Below the pieces are notes generated by a model. That model did no database searches, was not told the origin of the DNA, and was given only the letters and a program-made list of their open reading frames with translations. From the IMG/VR virus record IMGVR_UViG_3300033153_016011, positions 1-25,457 of that record: a stretch of 25,457 bases of DNA, one strand, 5' to 3'. Below are positions 11,433 to 23,626 of the stretch, piece by piece. The position numbers were made by a program, and so were the translations under genes. The stretch is from a virus. Within the stretch, counting starts at the first letter, position 1, and every line of letters starts with the position of its first letter.

Positions 11433-12314
11433 ATGAAAGAAAGGCTTGTAAATGACGTAATGGGTTATTTAAAGCCCGCAATGGCCAACAGGCAAGAACA
11501 GACAAGAAAAGAAAAACAATATTCTATAGACAATGAAACATATGCTCTGGAACATAGTTTAAGTAGTTGTGAAAAAAAAGATGGAGCAGCTTTATTAATA
11601 GCTGGTGGACCATCATATAAAAAAAACATTGATATAATAAGGAAGTTAAACTCAAAAGTTATTACTTTTGCCGCTAGTAGGGTCTATAATGAGTTGATAG
11701 ATAATCTTGTCATTCCTGATTATGTTGTTCATTTAGACAGTCATAGTCACGAGAGATGGTTTAATAAACCCATAAATAAAACAAAGTTGATAGCACCTAT
11801 ACAAACCTCTCCTGAACTGAGAGATTATTGGCCTTATGAAATATATTATTTTAGAGGTGAGATTGACTTTGTAAAAAAGTCTCATAATAGAAAAAGAGTA
11901 ATAGGAAAAGACCTTCCCATAATAGAATGTGGAGGTCACGTTGGCGGAGCTATGATAAGTCTGGCGGCCGCTTACTTCAAACTTAATCCAATATGTTTGA
12001 TAGGATATGATTATGCTACAGACCCTGAAGGAAGTTTTTATATTAATGATAAAGCACCTGAAGGTGATTACAAGGATTTTGTCTCCTGTCGTGGTAGAAA
12101 AGTTAAAACAAATCCGAAATACTTTGCACATATGATATTTGCCTTTGGATTAGCCGTTAAAAATAAAAATACTAAATGGTATAGTGCCAGTAATGGCATA
12201 TTTGGAATACTACCTGACTATGAAAAAAATCTGTGGGGTTATTACAAAGATATAGAATATATTACACTGGAGAAGTTTTATGACCTTTTTAAGGATGCAA
12301 AAGGAAGTATTTAG
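11433..12314 (+). CDS. DUF115/MptE-like (MAF family) protein
   Basis: AAAGGA lies 5-6 nt before the ATG. The 293-residue protein carries LLIAGGPS at residues 54-61, VVHLDSH at 98-104 and IECGGHVGGAMISLAAAYF at 164-182, then ICLIGYDYAT at 187-196. This is the Rossmann-like core of the DUF115 (6-hydroxymethylpterin pyrophosphokinase MptE-like) and flagellin-associated MAF glycosyltransferase-type group. Those proteins transfer a phosphate or sugar-type group; the substrate here is unknown. It sits between the capsid and the adaptor, where one would expect only structural genes. It may modify a virion or surface glycan, but it could have another role. Confidence 0.75.
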   Translation: MKERLVNDVMGYLKPAMANRQEQTRKEKQYSIDNETYALEHSLSSCEKKDGAALLIAGGPSYKKNIDIIRKLNSKVITFAASRVYNELIDNLVIPDYVVHLDSHSHERWFNKPINKTKLIAPIQTSPELRDYWPYEIYYFRGEIDFVKKSHNRKRVIGKDLPIIECGGHVGGAMISLAAAYFKLNPICLIGYDYATDPEGSFYINDKAPEGDYKDFVSCRGRKVKTNPKYFAHMIFAFGLAVKNKNTKWYSASNGIFGILPDYEKNLWGYYKDIEYITLEKFYDLFKDAKGSI

Positions 12315-12916: not shown

Positions 12917-14488
12917 ATGCTTAGAAACTCTCATATGCTAAAAATCACTGATTTCAGTGGTGGAATAAATGTCAATGATCCAGAAGATGAAATACAGGAT
13001 AACCAGGCCTGGTTTGGTTTAACTGATTATGATGCTACAAGAAATGTGTATTGGGAGGATGGTAAACTTAAGAAAAGAGCTGGAACTACCAATCTTAATA
13101 AAAGTGAAATAAGTGGCGCTGATGAAATAGTAAATGGTTTGAGGGTTTATAGAGAGTCAGCACCCACTAAAACCACTATAGTCGCAGCTAACGTAGGAAC
13201 GGACGCAGTACGCGTATATTATTTAGATGGAAGCAATATATTTCAAGAAATAACAAATGGAACAGGTTGGGGAGGTTTCACTGTAAATAGTGATGTATAT
13301 TTCGCCGTATGGAAGGGCAATGTCTATCTAACCAACGGAGACACTGTAATACAAAAAATAACTTACAGTGGTGGCTGGGATATGAATGATATAAGTGGCA
13401 ACACTAACCACCCTCAATATATAGTTCAACATAAGGATAGATTATGGGTAGCAGGCGGAAATATGAATGAGGGCCAGGTGGAATGTAGTGCTTATGAATA
13501 TGATAATAGCTGGTCCGGTGCTGATGGAGAAATATTTAACTTTGGTTACAAAGATGGTGATCCAATAACAGGACTTGTATCATATTTTGATAATCTAATA
13601 GTATTTAAACATAATAGTATATGGTTTCTTTCAGGTGATAATGCACAAAACTGGTTTGAAAAGAAAAATCAAAAAAGTGTAGGCTGTGTAGCACCTAAAA
13701 GTATAGTTAGTACTCCCTACGGTATTTTATTCTACGGCTCTGATAATCAGATTTATTTATTCAATATGGAGAGTTTAATACCTGTTAGTTATAATATACA
13801 ACCTGTTTTAGATTTGGTTCCAACATCCATGAGAGATAAGGCGGCTGGAATATATTATGATCACTATTATAGACTGGCAACAGCAAAAAGTGGAAGTGGT
13901 TATAATGATATAGAACTATTATTAGATACTTATCAACTTTCTCAACAAAAAACAACCTGGTGGTTCAACGATGGTAGAAATATAAATGCTTATATTAAAT
14001 ATGACGGGCAGGGTGATAATAATACCCTGTATTACTGTGATAGTAATGCTGGTTATATGAGAGCTATTGATAGTGGTATAACTGATTATAGTAATAGTAT
14101 TACGATGGAGTATCAAACCAAGTATTTTAACTTTGGTTCTGTTCACCTTCAAAAATCATACGACAGATTTTTGGTAAATGTAACTGAAGGTGTAGGAGAC
14201 TATAATATATCATTTATTAAAAATGTGGATGATGAATATATCAAAGAATATACTATTAGTTCTGGTAGTGGAAGTGGTGTTTATGCCGACACCGGTGGAG
14301 CATTATGGGACGACGCCGTATGGCAGGGTGAATCTATCACACGATATACCTGGCCTGATAAAAGTTGGTTAGTACCTGATGAACTTGATGGTAATAGTTT
14401 AAGTATTAAAATAAAACATGATACAGATAGTGAGGATGTCGCAATAAATAGTATGACTATATTTTATGCTACAAAGAGAATACAATGA
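12917..14488 (+). CDS. Tail nozzle (tubular B-like) protein
   Basis: ATG at 12917 follows the adaptor stop by one base; an upstream frame to 12815 would overlap most of the adaptor tail and is rejected. The 524-residue protein starts with DFSGGINVNDPED, a hallmark of beta-propeller nozzle proteins. It is rich in blades (VYFAVWKGNVYLTNG, DNLIVFKHNSIWFLSG, YGILFYGSDNQIYLF) with W and N-G repeats. The position after the adaptor and before fibre genes fits. The repeats suggest a propeller of about six blades forming the tail tube end. Confidence 0.75.
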   Translation: MLRNSHMLKITDFSGGINVNDPEDEIQDNQAWFGLTDYDATRNVYWEDGKLKKRAGTTNLNKSEISGADEIVNGLRVYRESAPTKTTIVAANVGTDAVRVYYLDGSNIFQEITNGTGWGGFTVNSDVYFAVWKGNVYLTNGDTVIQKITYSGGWDMNDISGNTNHPQYIVQHKDRLWVAGGNMNEGQVECSAYEYDNSWSGADGEIFNFGYKDGDPITGLVSYFDNLIVFKHNSIWFLSGDNAQNWFEKKNQKSVGCVAPKSIVSTPYGILFYGSDNQIYLFNMESLIPVSYNIQPVLDLVPTSMRDKAAGIYYDHYYRLATAKSGSGYNDIELLLDTYQLSQQKTTWWFNDGRNINAYIKYDGQGDNNTLYYCDSNAGYMRAIDSGITDYSNSITMEYQTKYFNFGSVHLQKSYDRFLVNVTEGVGDYNISFIKNVDDEYIKEYTISSGSGSGVYADTGGALWDDAVWQGESITRYTWPDKSWLVPDELDGNSLSIKIKHDTDSEDVAINSMTIFYATKRIQ

Positions 14489-15336
14489 GCGTTTTCACAT
14501 TAAAATATACATTTCAGGTTGGTGATGTTATTTCATCCGACAAAATGAATACCAACTTTAGTGATATTGCCACAAAAGTTAACGGAAATCTTGATGGAAA
14601 TAATATATCCAGAAGTGCAGATTTAACAGTAGCCAACGTGACTGTTCCTACTATTTCAACTCCTGATTTAAGTGGTGGAAGTCACAACATAGTCTATAAG
14701 TTGCCGGATCATGATGGAAGTCATAGTTTTTATTTGAAAGACAGTTCAGGAAATACTTTATTGACTGTTAGCAGTGATGGAAATGTAAGCTATGGAACGA
14801 AATACATAAATAAGTTTTTAGCTGTTGGATCAATATTGATGTATAATGGAACTGGATGGGAAGATAATAGCACAATAAAGGGTTGGTATAAATGTGATGG
14901 TAATAATGGAACTGTAAATCTTCTAAATAAGTTTATTAGATGTGAAGCCACAAGCGGAAATACTGGTGGAAGCAATGATATAAAACTAATACAACATACT
15001 CACACTAACAGTTGTGGTAATGATGATACAGCCCATTCACACACTATAGGCATAGGTGGCTGGACCGGATATACAAATCCAAACCATACACATACTATTT
15101 ATTTAGGTGTAACGGCTGGTAGTGAGTTCACATTAAAATATGCTAAAGATGAAAGCCCCAGTGGACTATACACAAACTCTATTATATACAGTCACTATCA
15201 TACTTATAGTGGAACATTACCTAATACATCAACGAGGCATACTCATACATCTTCTATTTCAAATACAGGTCAGTCTGCCACTAATAGAAATATGCCGCCA
15301 TATTATAGTTTAATATTCATACAGAGGATTTCTTAA
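14485..15336 (+). CDS. Tail-collar-domain fibre protein, paralog A
   Basis: The start overlaps the previous stop as ATGA. The 283-residue protein has an N-terminal unit (QVGDVISSDKMNTNFSDIA) and a repeat-rich middle. It then has the phage collar motif GWYKCDGNNGTVNLLNKFIR (about 132-151), five HxH motifs (HTH, HSH, HTH, HYH, HTH) and the end motif PPYYSLIFIQ. In T4 gp37-type fibres HxH motifs bind iron along the trimer axis, and by analogy these would do so. It is the first of three adjacent paralogs and likely forms part of the receptor-contact apparatus. The last codons carry the AGAGG ribosome site for paralog B. Confidence 0.8.
   Translation: MSVFTLKYTFQVGDVISSDKMNTNFSDIATKVNGNLDGNNISRSADLTVANVTVPTISTPDLSGGSHNIVYKLPDHDGSHSFYLKDSSGNTLLTVSSDGNVSYGTKYINKFLAVGSILMYNGTGWEDNSTIKGWYKCDGNNGTVNLLNKFIRCEATSGNTGGSNDIKLIQHTHTNSCGNDDTAHSHTIGIGGWTGYTNPNHTHTIYLGVTAGSEFTLKYAKDESPSGLYTNSIIYSHYHTYSGTLPNTSTRHTHTSSISNTGQSATNRNMPPYYSLIFIQRIS
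14938..14969 (+). repeat. 32-nt identical patch shared with paralog C
   Basis: This 32-nt stretch encoding R-C-E-A-T-S-G-N-T-G is identical to 16628-16659 in paralog C but not in paralog B. The two genes are far less alike elsewhere, so it marks a local gene-conversion or template-switch tract inside the collar region. Confidence 0.8.
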
Positions 15337-16193
15337 TGGGTACTTTATCATATTCATATACTCTACAAACTGGAAAAAAACCAAAACCAGGTCCCGTAAA
15401 TGATAACTTTCAAAAAGTTGTAGATTTATTAAATAGAAACCTGGATGAAAATAATATAAAATCAACTACTAATCTTACTATTAATAGTTTAACCGCTGAT
15501 ACAAAAATAACTTCTACTTTAATAGAAAGCACTGGTGATATTATTATTACCTCAACCGGAAGTGATTTTGATGTTTATGATAGTTCAGCAACAAAAGTAT
15601 TTAATATTGATAATGATAATGGTATTACAATAACAGGAGACTATGAAGCTCTTGCTGTAGGAACAATAATACCCTTTAGTGGAACTTTCACAAATAATAC
15701 TACTATTCCGGGCTGGTATAAGTGTGATGGAAATAATGGAACTGTCAATCTTGTAAATAAGTTCATTAAAGGGGTGAGTGATACAGAAGGAACAGGATCC
15801 CACACAGGTGGAACTGACGATGCTACTTTAATAGAACATACACATGATTCAAGCACATTAGTGTCGGGTGGTGTAAGTCATACACATTCATTATCCGCTA
15901 ATACTGCTGCTCTCACTAAACAGGGTACATACACACATAAAGTATATGGAAATACAAGTAATGACAGTGGGGCCTGGACTGGATTATATGGTAATTACAG
16001 TGATGTTACACATGTAGGAATAACAACAACTGATACTTCTGACAATCATAGACACTGGATGACATCTTTAAGTATAGGAAGCAGTTCTACTCATACACAT
16101 ACTGTAACAATAAATAATGCCGGAACTGGAGATGGAACTGGTGATAATATACCGGCTTATTATAGTTTAGTCTTTATACAGAGGATTTCTTAA
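15336..16193 (+). CDS. Tail-collar-domain fibre protein, paralog B
   Basis: The start overlaps the previous stop by one base (TAATG). The 285-residue protein has the same architecture as its neighbours: a N-terminal unit (QTGKKPKPGPVNDNFQKV), a serine/threonine-rich repeat stalk, GWYKCDGNNGTVNLVNKFIK, several HxH motifs (HTH, HTH, HRH, HTH) and the end PAYYSLVFIQRIS. It differs most in the histidine-rich tip between about residues 165 and 260, where receptor specificity would be expected. It lacks the shared 32-nt conversion patch. Confidence 0.8.
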   Translation: MGTLSYSYTLQTGKKPKPGPVNDNFQKVVDLLNRNLDENNIKSTTNLTINSLTADTKITSTLIESTGDIIITSTGSDFDVYDSSATKVFNIDNDNGITITGDYEALAVGTIIPFSGTFTNNTTIPGWYKCDGNNGTVNLVNKFIKGVSDTEGTGSHTGGTDDATLIEHTHDSSTLVSGGVSHTHSLSANTAALTKQGTYTHKVYGNTSNDSGAWTGLYGNYSDVTHVGITTTDTSDNHRHWMTSLSIGSSSTHTHTVTINNAGTGDGTGDNIPAYYSLVFIQRIS

Positions 16194-17023
16194 TGGCTAA
16201 TATTTCTATAACAAACACTTTTGTACCAGGAACAAGCATAAGTGCCAATGAACTGAATGAAAACTTTGATGACATAAAAAATGTTGTTAATAATAATATA
16301 GAAGATAATAATATACTTGATACCAGTAATATAACTATAGATACTTTAACAGCCTCAACTAAAATAACCTGTCTAAGTTTATCTGTTCCTAAAAATACTT
16401 TGGGTGATGCTGCCGGTACATATAAGATTTCTATTACTGATGATAATGATACAGAGCTATTTTCTGTAGACAGTTCCGGCAATATAGATGACAAATATAA
16501 GTCTGATTTATTACCTTCCGGAACAGTAGCAATGTTTAAGGGTTCCTGGATAGATAACTCAACCATTCCAGGTTGGTACAAATGTGATGGTAATAATGGG
16601 ACACCTAATCTGGTAGATAAGTTCGTAAGATGTGAAGCCACAAGCGGAAATACTGGTGGGTATACTGATAGAATATTACCAGAGCATACACATACAGCAA
16701 GCTGCGGAAATGATACTGGACATACTCATTCTATACAACTTCAGTGGGATGTACAGAGTATAGACCATGGTCATACACTTTATTTCAGTATTTCTCCATC
16801 AGGTAGTGGAACAACCTGTGCTTATGGAATATTAAATAATCAAATTCTGTATACACCATCACAGGCAATAAATGACTCCCACACACATAGTTTTTCATAT
16901 ACATCAATGTCCAAAGTCGGTGAGCATGCTCACACTATCACTGTTAATAATACAGGTTCAGCAGGTTCATCAAATGATAATCTACCGGCTTATTATGAAC
17001 TATTATTTATAATGAAAGTTTAA
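16193..17023 (+). CDS. Tail-collar-domain fibre protein, paralog C
   Basis: The start overlaps the previous stop by one base, as for paralog B. The 276-residue protein has the N-terminal unit VPGTSISANELNENFDDI, then GWYKCDGNNGTPNLVDKFVR, where the Pro restores the canonical collar consensus. It has five HxH motifs (HTH, HTH, HGH, HTH, HAH). The end motif is divergent (PAYYELLFIMKV) and there is no following ribosome-site remnant. The three genes sit head to tail without gaps, as expected from tandem duplication; they probably share assembly sites and could build a mixed fibre complex. Confidence 0.8.
   Translation: MANISITNTFVPGTSISANELNENFDDIKNVVNNNIEDNNILDTSNITIDTLTASTKITCLSLSVPKNTLGDAAGTYKISITDDNDTELFSVDSSGNIDDKYKSDLLPSGTVAMFKGSWIDNSTIPGWYKCDGNNGTPNLVDKFVRCEATSGNTGGYTDRILPEHTHTASCGNDTGHTHSIQLQWDVQSIDHGHTLYFSISPSGSGTTCAYGILNNQILYTPSQAINDSHTHSFSYTSMSKVGEHAHTITVNNTGSAGSSNDNLPAYYELLFIMKV
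16628..16659 (+). repeat. 32-nt identical patch shared with paralog A
   Basis: Second copy of the stretch at 14938-14969, with no mismatch over 32 nt, in the homologous place just after the collar motif. Confidence 0.8.
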
Positions 17024-19786: not shown

Positions 19787-22700
19787 ATGAAAACATATCA
19801 ACTTCCGCAGGTATCCCTGCCAAAATATGACATACCATATCTAAAGAAAACAAAACAAACTTTAGATGAAAAAATAGCTGAAAGTGAAAACCTTGCTAAA
19901 ACTATAGGGATAACTCTGCCTGGATCCAGGCCTGAAGAAAGAGATAAAATGTCTCTGTTTGATTTTCTTGAAATAGCGAGATTTCCTATTACAGCTATGT
20001 TATATGAAACAGCAAGACAATATAAAGAAGACAAACTGGAATGGAATGATATAGATGATATAGTTAAAGCTGGTATTCACGGTTGGAAAAACAGGAAATA
20101 CACAAGAGATATAATCAATCTATTGTGGCCTGATGCTCCTGAATGGGTAAAAGCAGTTGGAGGAGCCGCGGGTGATATTATTAGTGACCCTGCCACCTGG
20201 ATAACTTTTGGAATGGGTGGAGGTCTTAAGGGTGGAGCACAGGCGGCCCGAGAAGGAACAAAATACATAAGTGGAGTAACTAAATACGCAGGCTGGTTAT
20301 CCAAGTATCCGGCAAAATATAAAACTTTTGTTTCAAATATGATAAAAAAATGGGGAGGTAAAACTCTTTCTGAAGCCATACAGAATGCGGCTATAGCTAC
20401 CACAAGAACAGCAGGCAAGGCCGGTTTATATGCGAGAATACCTTTCACCAAGGCTGAAAAGTTATTAGTCAAGGGTGCTCCTTCAGAACTAATAGCTAAA
20501 GGATTGGGAAAGTTTGGAGTAAGTCCTCAAATAACAAAAGCGGTTAAATATTTACCAAGTACTATTAAAAAAGTTCCAGTAGTAGGTGGTATATACAAAG
20601 CCTTCAGTCCTTATGGAAAAATAGGTCCATATAGAAAAGCTATAGATATAGATAAAATGAGGCGGGGCTTTCAAACAGCAGACATAAAAATAGTAACTGA
20701 ACAGTTTAAGGACGTTATTAATGATATAGACAATGTTATAAAAGCTCCACCTAAACAGATAAATAATCTACTAAAAGGAATAAAGCACAAAGGAACAAAG
20801 CAGGATAAAATAATAACTTTTATTAGAGATACTTTAGAAAAATACGGCACAGAAGACGCCTACAAAAAACTTCCTAAAAAGCTTCAACCAGTTGCTCAAA
20901 AAGTGAGAACTATGTATAAGACACAGTTTGATGAACTGGTAAAACGAGGCATCCTCAAAAAAGAACAATACATTCCAAACTACTTTCCGAGATACTTTGA
21001 AAAAGCAGACACTGGTGAGCTGCGCTATTTTAATATAAAAGGCAAGCTTGATCCTAACTTTACAAAGTTAAGAACTTTCAAAACAGCCAAAGAGGCGGAG
21101 GCACACGGTTTCAAACTATTAGGTGCAAAAGACAGTATGTCCGTCTATTTTGATCAAGCTATCAGGGCACAAAACTTCCACGATTATTTAAAACAGATAA
21201 CAGCTTTTTATGGTACTCCTCTTAAAAAAGGAGCAAAATATGCCAAAGAAGATTTTATAAAGCTTAATAAGCCTGGTTTTGAAAGAATATTGGTTCCTAA
21301 AGAAATAGGTGAGATAGTTAACCAGGTAGGACTAATACTTGAAAAACCAGATCTATTTATAAAGGCAGCGAGATGGATAAATAAAGGTCAAAATGTATGG
21401 AAGAAACAGGCCACTGTTTGGTGGGGTGGTTTCCATGTTAGAAACTATGTCTCAAATGGTTGGACTTATATTTTTGCCGATGGTCTTGGTCCTAAACAAA
21501 TAAAGAATTATGAAAATGCCCGCAGAATAGTAAGAAATCCTAATAGTCTCAAAAAACTAACTCTAACTCTGCAGGGAAAAAAATATACAAAAACTCTGAA
21601 GGACTGGAACAGTTTTTTCACAAGGTCTACAGCTCATAGTGGAGGTTTTGGAGCAAGTGAGTTAAGAGAAATAGCTTCAGTCAGAAAGGGTATTGGAGAA
21701 ATAGGAAAAACATTCAAAGAAAAAGTTGTTCATCCGGCTGAAAAAGGACTGGCAAGAGCTGGTATTCCATTAGGTAGACAGACAGGTGTTCAGATTGAGA
21801 ACTCATTTAGAATCGCGAGTATGATGAATGGTGTAGACAAGGGACTTAACCTCACTGAAGCCGCTTTGAGGTCAAATAGACTTTATATTGATTATGCCTC
21901 CTTGACGCCTGCTGAAAGGGTTGTCACAAAGTTTATACCATTTTATTGTGTGCCGGAAACAGCAGAAATACTAACAAAAGTAGGATGGAAGAAATATACT
22001 GACCTGAAAATAGGCGAAGATGTTCTAACATACAATGTAGATAAAAATGGAACAGAATGGCAGCCGGTAGAAGACATAGCGGTTTTTAATTTTGATGATG
22101 AACTCGTTCACATTAAAAATAAAACTAATGTGGATTTTCTCTGTACAGAAGATCACAGATGGCCGGTTGAAACAACCAAACATAAAGTAAAAGGAAAGTT
22201 GTATGATGGTGAGAGAAAAATAATTAGAACTTATAAACTCAACACTACGCATAGTCTAAAACTTTCTGCTCTTCCTCTGAAAGATCGCGATAGTATAATA
22301 ACTCCGCGGGATGCCGCCATTATTGGTTGGATTGTTACAGATGGAACGATCAAACATGTCGGGAAAGACAAAAAATCTATTTGGGCAACTATCTATCAAT
22401 CCCCCAAAAAGTATGCTGATGAAATAAGAGAACTAATAAAAGATTATGGTGCTAAAGAATTAGTCCATCCAACGACTGGAGTAATAAGTTTTCCTTTGAA
22501 AGCCTCTTATACAAACACGATAAAATACTGGTTAGAAGACATAAGTAGATTACCTGAACTGGTATCACAGCTTTCTAATGAAGCATTAGAAGCAATGTAT
22601 GATGCCATGATAAAAGCAGAAGGAACTACATTTAGAAAAAATAATAAAACAACGGCTGTTATGTTTTCCCAACTAAGAGGGCCAGTATTGGACGCCTTCC

Positions 22701-23626
22701 AAATAATATGTCAGCTCCTTGGAAAGTCATTCTATACCAAAAATAATAATGGATATGTCAATAGAAAATATAATAATGTTTTTGTAACTAATTTAGATAT
22801 TTTTAAAGAACACTACAAAGGAAAAATATGGTGTCCTAAAACAGCTAACTCTACATGGATAATGAGACAAAATGGAAGACCAATAATAACGGGCAATACT
22901 TGGCTTAAAGAAAATATGGTTAACCAGGTTATCTTCATGATGGCCGATCCTGGTAAATATAGTATGTATACCTCAAAAGCTTTAAGAGCTATTAGCTGGG
23001 AAAATCAGGACCTGAAGAAGTATATGCCTGAATGGATGAAAGAAAATCAATATGTAATGTCTCCATTCGGACTTAATATAGGTGGTACACCAATGGTGGC
23101 CAATCCTAACCTACCATTTCAGGATCCATATAAGTATTTACAGCCAACTCGACCACTTAGAGGACTAACCGAGGCGGCCATTCAAAGTATGTCTCCGTTT
23201 ATTAAGCTACCTTTTGAACTTGCCGGTGGAACAAGTTTATTTACAGGAAGACCCATAGCCTACAGTAAATATGATACCAGTGAAATACCTCCTGCGATGT
23301 CTCCTTTTGTCAGGGCTATACCAGAAAGAATAAGAAAAAAGCTTGGCATAGTACTTAATAAAAATGGCATATATGAAGCAAACGCAAAAGTAGTATATGC
23401 TCTGTATAATCTATTACCTCTATTAAGAGCTGGTGAAAATATAAGAGGTTTTACAAAACCTCCTGAAGAAGATTATAAAGTGTTGGCTAAAAAGTTTGGA
23501 GCAATGAGTAGAGGTGCCGGTATCAAGTTAAAACCTTTTGATCCTGAATATTATAAAAAAAGAGCTAAAAATAAATATTATCAAGAACTTAAAGCTAAAA
23601 TAAATAAATATGTGGGAAGTAGATAA
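19787..23626 (+). CDS. Large injection-type virion protein with intein
   Basis: The 1279-residue precursor has a 962-residue extein after removal of the 317-residue intein (residues 721-1037). The N-terminal region has a KVxVGGAAGDIISDP-like segment (near 120-135), then Gly-rich helices and basic stretches, and WWGGFHVRNYVSNGW near 545. The C-terminal part has DYASLTPAERVVTKFIPFY joined after splicing to TWLKENM, a motif type common in giant phage injection or polyvalent proteins. Its size, place after two coiled-coil proteins and before the fibre, and helical make-up fit the large ejected core protein. The start at 19787 has a weak ribosome site, so the exact N-terminus is less certain. Exact biochemical role not known. 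Confidence 0.7.
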   Translation: MKTYQLPQVSLPKYDIPYLKKTKQTLDEKIAESENLAKTIGITLPGSRPEERDKMSLFDFLEIARFPITAMLYETARQYKEDKLEWNDIDDIVKAGIHGWKNRKYTRDIINLLWPDAPEWVKAVGGAAGDIISDPATWITFGMGGGLKGGAQAAREGTKYISGVTKYAGWLSKYPAKYKTFVSNMIKKWGGKTLSEAIQNAAIATTRTAGKAGLYARIPFTKAEKLLVKGAPSELIAKGLGKFGVSPQITKAVKYLPSTIKKVPVVGGIYKAFSPYGKIGPYRKAIDIDKMRRGFQTADIKIVTEQFKDVINDIDNVIKAPPKQINNLLKGIKHKGTKQDKIITFIRDTLEKYGTEDAYKKLPKKLQPVAQKVRTMYKTQFDELVKRGILKKEQYIPNYFPRYFEKADTGELRYFNIKGKLDPNFTKLRTFKTAKEAEAHGFKLLGAKDSMSVYFDQAIRAQNFHDYLKQITAFYGTPLKKGAKYAKEDFIKLNKPGFERILVPKEIGEIVNQVGLILEKPDLFIKAARWINKGQNVWKKQATVWWGGFHVRNYVSNGWTYIFADGLGPKQIKNYENARRIVRNPNSLKKLTLTLQGKKYTKTLKDWNSFFTRSTAHSGGFGASELREIASVRKGIGEIGKTFKEKVVHPAEKGLARAGIPLGRQTGVQIENSFRIASMMNGVDKGLNLTEAALRSNRLYIDYASLTPAERVVTKFIPFYCVPETAEILTKVGWKKYTDLKIGEDVLTYNVDKNGTEWQPVEDIAVFNFDDELVHIKNKTNVDFLCTEDHRWPVETTKHKVKGKLYDGERKIIRTYKLNTTHSLKLSALPLKDRDSIITPRDAAIIGWIVTDGTIKHVGKDKKSIWATIYQSPKKYADEIRELIKDYGAKELVHPTTGVISFPLKASYTNTIKYWLEDISRLPELVSQLSNEALEAMYDAMIKAEGTTFRKNNKTTAVMFSQLRGPVLDAFQIICQLLGKSFYTKNNNGYVNRKYNNVFVTNLDIFKEHYKGKIWCPKTANSTWIMRQNGRPIITGNTWLKENMVNQVIFMMADPGKYSMYTSKALRAISWENQDLKKYMPEWMKENQYVMSPFGLNIGGTPMVANPNLPFQDPYKYLQPTRPLRGLTEAAIQSMSPFIKLPFELAGGTSLFTGRPIAYSKYDTSEIPPAMSPFVRAIPERIRKKLGIVLNKNGIYEANAKVVYALYNLLPLLRAGENIRGFTKPPEEDYKVLAKKFGAMSRGAGIKLKPFDPEYYKKRAKNKYYQELKAKINKYVGSR
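21947..22897 (+). mobile_element. Intein with LAGLIDADG homing endonuclease
   Basis: An in-frame 317-residue element. It begins at Cys (CVPETAEILTKVGWKKYTDL, block A) and has the T-x-x-H motif in CTEDHRW (intein residues 67-70). The endonuclease has two LAGLIDADG-type helices, IIGWIVTDG (about 125-133, D132) and MYDAMIKAEG (about 217-226, E225). It ends KIWCPKTANSTW, RQNGRPIITGN and then Thr (+1). The terminal Asn is preceded by Gly where most inteins have His, a variant seen in several phage inteins. Protein splicing should join FIPFY to TWLKENM. The endonuclease would cut intein-less copies of the same phage gene during coinfection. Confidence 0.92.

Follow-up and report, generated by a model that had tools for sequence, protein, structure and literature searches.

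A probably mobile LAGLIDADG intein with a mixed class 1/class 3 signature in a polyvalent-like giant phage protein

Introduction

A viral contig from IMG/VR (record IMGVR_UViG_3300033153_016011, positions 1 to 25,457; this whole 25,457-nt stretch is referred to here as the window) encodes on its plus strand a giant precursor protein of 1279 residues (19787..23626), whose reading frame contains an insert with the appearance of an intein. A sequence-only reading had taken this insert for a complete intein with an endonuclease, perhaps recently arrived in the gene of what looked like an ejected virion protein. The locus raises the questions of what the insert is, whether its site is a habitual target of such elements, by which nucleophile it would splice, and what kind of protein it interrupts. 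We find an element of a known kind, the novelty of which lies in its host class, its clustered insertion points and its mixed class 1/class 3 signature.

Results

The insert is a complete intein with a LAGLIDADG endonuclease

The insert occupies 21947..22897 on the plus strand (951 nt, precursor residues 721-1037) and is in frame. Its N-side flank ends with ...TKFIPFY (FIPFY, 21932..21946) and its C-side flank starts with TWLKENM (22898..22918), and excision of its 317 residues from the precursor leaves a 962-residue extein in which the two motifs are contiguous. The boundaries proposed by the sequence-only reading proved exact to the base, and the residues that it had named all lie where it placed them: Cys1, the class 1 nucleophile of block A (21947..21949); T67 and H70 of block B (T67-x-x-H70-x-W72, 22145..22162); the catalytic D132 of the first LAGLIDADG motif (GWIVTDG, G127-W-I-V-T-D132-G, 22325..22345); the catalytic E225 of the second (AMIKAEG, residues 220-226, with A224-E225-G, 22604..22624); and the terminal Gly-Asn of block G (I314-T315-G316-N317, then Thr+1, 22886..22900), where a penultimate Gly replaces His. 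Block F reads W295-C296-P297 (22829..22837). The insert has in this way the residues expected of an intein, namely a nucleophile at position 1 (or a WCT triplet, see below), TxxH, a terminal Asn and a Cys, Ser or Thr at +1, as well as the two motifs with catalytic acids expected of a LAGLIDADG homing endonuclease.

In a tblastn search of phage records, the insert aligned over residues 1-317 with inteins (best E 1e-22), and at least 80% of it was covered in 81 of 125 records; the matched inteins sit in DNA polymerases, TerL, portal proteins and NrdA. The LAGLIDADG inteins of the tailed-phage proteins KIL1 DNA polymerase, Hail2Pitt portal, GordTnk2 TerL and Pinkcreek gp135, alignable over 1-317, share with the window's intein Cys1, TxxH, a W at B:12, a C at F:4, a TGN end and both LAGLIDADG motifs, but are only 24-28% identical to it and occupy other host genes and sites. 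An AlphaFold model built from the alignment of six same-site inteins (pLDDT 85.2, pTM 0.86) had TliVMA (E 1.3e-13), PI-PfuI and PI-SceI as its best Foldseek matches, which groups it among complete inteins that contain a LAGLIDADG endonuclease; I-DmoI and I-SceI were also matched. These full-length matches and the fold, a Hint splicing domain interrupted by a LAGLIDADG endonuclease, bear out the complete intein with an endonuclease. The HMM comparison that had been suggested as a check gave a weak result: Pfam LAGLIDADG_3 (PF14528) matched barely above its cut-off (22.6 against 22.5 bits), whereas no Pfam Hint or intein model matched at E<=1 and no NCBIfam model matched. The Hint assignment comes from the fold and not from Pfam sequence models, and fold and family comparison outweigh the missing Pfam match.

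The unmatched Hint models, like the missing penultimate His, might instead betray a decayed intein, or a fusion with a free-standing endonuclease, in which splicing has been lost. We consider this most improbable, since the nucleophiles, TxxH, the terminal Asn and Thr+1 are all kept and are conserved across alleles, TGN ends are normal in the lineage, and neither a stop nor a frameshift, both named beforehand as arguments against an intein, is present. The insert is a real, complete intein and is probably mobile.

The insertion site is contiguous and highly conserved in intein-less homologues

No relative emerged when viral contigs were scanned with a single sequence, whether precursor or intein, and none was recovered with a two-row alignment; relatives were recovered by motif-based DNA patterns instead. 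The pattern T..E.(6-7)[IM]PFY[ST]W matched 36 viral contigs in one search and at least 120 in another, and nearly all matches inspected lay in long ORFs with FDY..LT..E upstream. In total, 103 distinct site sequences were compared, and [I/M]PFY[T/S]W was contiguous in about 100 distinct intein-less alleles. A distant host relative in phage ctEqG8 carries an uninterrupted MPFYTY, and through it BLAST led to Shocker gp37, DS1 and Casserole gp27, with the motifs PFYSW, PFYSW and LYYTW, respectively. The homologue L027 is full-length and without an intein (34% identical over 976 aa), and is syntenic, with neighbours related to window genes both upstream and downstream of the host gene. An intein-less homologue with a contiguous motif had been anticipated, and ctEqG8, Shocker, DS1, Casserole, L027 and more than 100 contigs provide it, the insert being absent at the same point.

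The motif formed by FIPFY and TWLKENM, previously only judged to look conserved, is highly conserved across the family: the T, E, PFY and W of the site motif are invariant in 34 aligned members, which were collected through the site motif itself, but the motif also occurs in the proteins of Shocker, DS1 and Casserole, which came from BLAST. Within the host's C-terminal module no motif is more conserved than the one at the insertion site. For annotation this means that the host family is easily missed, part of a conserved module being masked by the intein.

Related inteins recur within three residues of one spot

A site pattern ending in Cys picked out six contigs whose inteins share the window's exact insertion point. 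Scanning with the alignment of inteins recovered 80 loci in viral sequences and 28 in genomes. These counts are not readable as occupancy rates, as intein and pattern searches favour conserved motifs. After reading of the flanks (a slash marks the insertion point), 12 distinct inteins, the window's included, were placed at PFY/[ST] or the equivalent YFY/T. Three others (L189, L190 and L203) lie two codons downstream of the usual site, as in IPFYSW/S or IPFYSW/C; seven, plus L210, lie at the matching PYW/TY or PFW/TY site of more distant proteins; and that of L213 (5989-6888) lies three residues past the equivalent point, after PFWMYE. In profile comparisons from which the inteins were withheld, the hosts of L189-L191 belonged clearly to the host family (E 4e-15), and the PYW site aligned to the PFY site weakly (E 0.002). 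The motif is an insertion hotspot with three positions, no more than three residues from one spot, which related inteins have entered again and again in phages that are mostly distantly related. This bears out the proposal that the lineage targets this family of giant late-gene proteins. Most of these inteins also belong to one clade.

In the intein tree, 19 of the 22 host-family inteins fell into one group (94/94), together with L207 and L213. L205 and L208/L215 were placed outside it, which points either to more than one entry into the site or to errors in the deep branches. L189 groups with L191 (99/93), so that inteins at site +2 are nested among those at site 0 and the insertion point has shifted. 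In most pairs compared, intein identity exceeds host identity, such as 71% against 46% for L189 and L191, and 45% against 27% for the window and L188; this is as expected for homing between phages, and slower evolution of the inteins may also produce it. Every host-family allele retains the acidic residues of its two LAGLIDADG motifs, and this conservation suggests that homing either continues or stopped only recently. L208 (1859-2758), L215 (6001-6903) and L210 (264-1178) carry Ser1 inteins with WCT at the PYW/TY or PFW/TY site, those of L208 and L215 forming a separate long branch of the tree; and L268 (2034-2951), on a probable phage contig binned in a Phycisphaerae MAG, has a same-family intein, 41% identical to the window's, at the host motif YFY/TY.

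The mycobacteriophage inteins of Kelley et al. (2016; PMC5050341) resemble the window's in being phage-borne, ending in Gly-Asn and interrupting conserved motifs; they include an RDF intein with a penultimate Gly, and TerL1-a and TerL1-b one residue apart, like the closely spaced sites here. They differ in that no polyvalent-like virion-type host is listed and in that the window's intein combines Cys1 with WCT.

The window's intein had been regarded as possibly a recent invader, and we reject this idea. Its composition matches that of its flanks (GC 34.3% against 36.7% and 35.5%; GC3 25.2% against 26.1% and 24.3%), and the closest intein found is merely 45-48% identical to it.

Cys1 co-occurs with a complete class 3 triplet

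The sequence-only reading overlooked that the intein, besides the Cys1 of class 1, bears the full WCT triplet, with W72 at B:12, C296 at F:4, the class 3 branch-point position, and T315 at G:5, the positions published for class 3 (PMC5050341, PMC3196547). The class 3 inteins MP-Bethlehem DnaB, MP-Catera Gp206 and MchDnaB1 share these three residues, and the window's intein differs from them by having Cys1. With both signatures in one intein, the first nucleophile is uncertain. The combination is common among its relatives: of the 23 host-family alleles, 17 have WCT, L213 included, and 16 of these have it with Cys1 or Ser1; WCT with Cys1 or Ser1 was also found in 24 of the 33 other inteins of metagenomic origin and in 6 of the 7 checked from isolate phages. 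L213, from the same clade, has Glu1 with the full triplet, which makes it a putative class 3 intein surrounded by relatives with Cys1. Mixed motifs of this kind were reportedly noted by Tori and Perler in 2011, in Catera Gp206 and a Nocardioides TOPRIM intein.

It is conceivable, though we think it the less likely course, that the window's intein follows the class 3 route, in which the N-terminal splice bond is attacked by C296, while Cys1 is not needed or only assists. The complete triplet at class 3 positions and the Glu1 of L213 argue for this route; the presence of Cys1 argues against it, as the usual definition of class 3 includes a missing N-terminal nucleophile, and so does the frequency of WCT beside Cys1 or Ser1, since WCT alone may then not give the class. 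WCT has been stated to be confined to class 3 inteins (PMC7664689), a statement that the sequences with Cys1 or Ser1 and WCT contradict unless Cys1 is unused. We tentatively raise the idea that the clade's inteins carry two usable initiators, Cys1 and the C296 of WCT, and would be living forms of the proposed phage progenitor of class 3. If so, loss of Cys1, as in L213, would leave a working class 3 intein, and the natural series Cys1+WCT, Ser1+WCT and Glu1+WCT offers a direct test of that proposed origin.

A mobile intein is strongly favoured over a splicing switch

Very probably, the insert belongs to a phage lineage of mobile, site-specific inteins and resides in a polyvalent-like host gene, and from its anatomy we infer the following course. 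The 1279-residue precursor would be translated whole; the Hint domain (insert residues 1-about 115 and about 283-317) would excise itself, with either Cys1 or C296 as the step 1 nucleophile, and ligate its flanks, FIPFY and TWLKENM, into the 962-residue virion-type protein. Once released, the endonuclease would cut intein-less alleles of the same gene at the IPFY/TW codons in co-infecting phages, and repair of the cut allele would copy the intein in.

Alternatively, splicing might be slow or conditional and the intein act as a switch on the assembly or delivery of the protein, an idea that draws on the position of the insert inside the host module's best-conserved motif, where it would probably leave the unspliced protein inactive. 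However, parasitic inteins usually sit in active centres (PMC5050341, PMC10643990), and most host relatives have no intein, so regulation is not required. Nor is the penultimate Gly a sign of slowness, because a phage intein with a native Gly at this position spliced worse after its change to His (PMC5050341). We therefore regard a switch as improbable.

The host is a polyvalent-like protein of a late structural cluster

The window also encodes a P22/SU10-like portal, TerL, SU10-like major capsid and adaptor proteins, fibre genes and a Peptidase_S74 protein, which puts the host gene in a late structural cluster. No family of Pfam or NCBIfam was named for the host protein; Pfam LPD38 (PF18857) did not match it, and gave 15 bits against a cut-off of 27 for the family member L083. 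The model of the homologue L027 was good in its C-terminal half only; it retrieved nothing significant from the PDB with Foldseek, and among viral models (BFVD) mainly proteins described as 'large polyvalent protein associated domain' (E to 4e-15), ART-PolyVal and Zeta toxin fusions among them. The profile of the host family matched a 'Tail protein' in the PDB, chain 9k3a_A (E 1.5e-5, PF..W motif aligned); this match was not relied on, as no paper on the entry was found.

Homology to the module surrounding LPD38 was evident in profile alignments. The host family and three LPD38 proteins from bacterial genomes have in common, whole or in part, an FHxRN-EN..R-DY-PF module (hhalign E 1.4e-6, 8.4e-7 and 6e-4). 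LPD38 phage polyvalent proteins (Iyer et al., 2017; PMC5512222) resemble the host in a related FHxRN, EN..R, DY...PF module and in late-gene context; the host differs in falling below the Pfam LPD38 cut-off and in that no effector domain was recognised in its 962-residue extein. Phage polyvalent proteins have been argued to be packaged and injected (PMC5512222, where inteins are unmentioned). The extein is polyvalent-like and probably injected; of the earlier guess of an ejected protein, the relatedness to LPD38-linked polyvalent proteins holds, and injection, like packaging, is our inference, given the sub-threshold LPD38 score and the lack of a solved-structure fold match. A literature text search combining inteins with ejection or internal virion proteins, from whose coverage most subscription journals are absent, returned no report of such a host. 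Giant polyvalent or injected-type virion proteins would be a new host class for inteins, beyond the usual replication and packaging enzymes.

Three other features of the window were observed. Six MORN_2 repeats lie near its start (821-1372), with a weak match to an LIC20035-type adhesin; an MptE-like (PF01973) protein (11433-12314) is oddly placed between the major capsid and SU10-type adaptor genes; and three consecutive genes at 14485-17023 all match one family of tail fibres (phrog_8469) and probably arose by tandem duplication.
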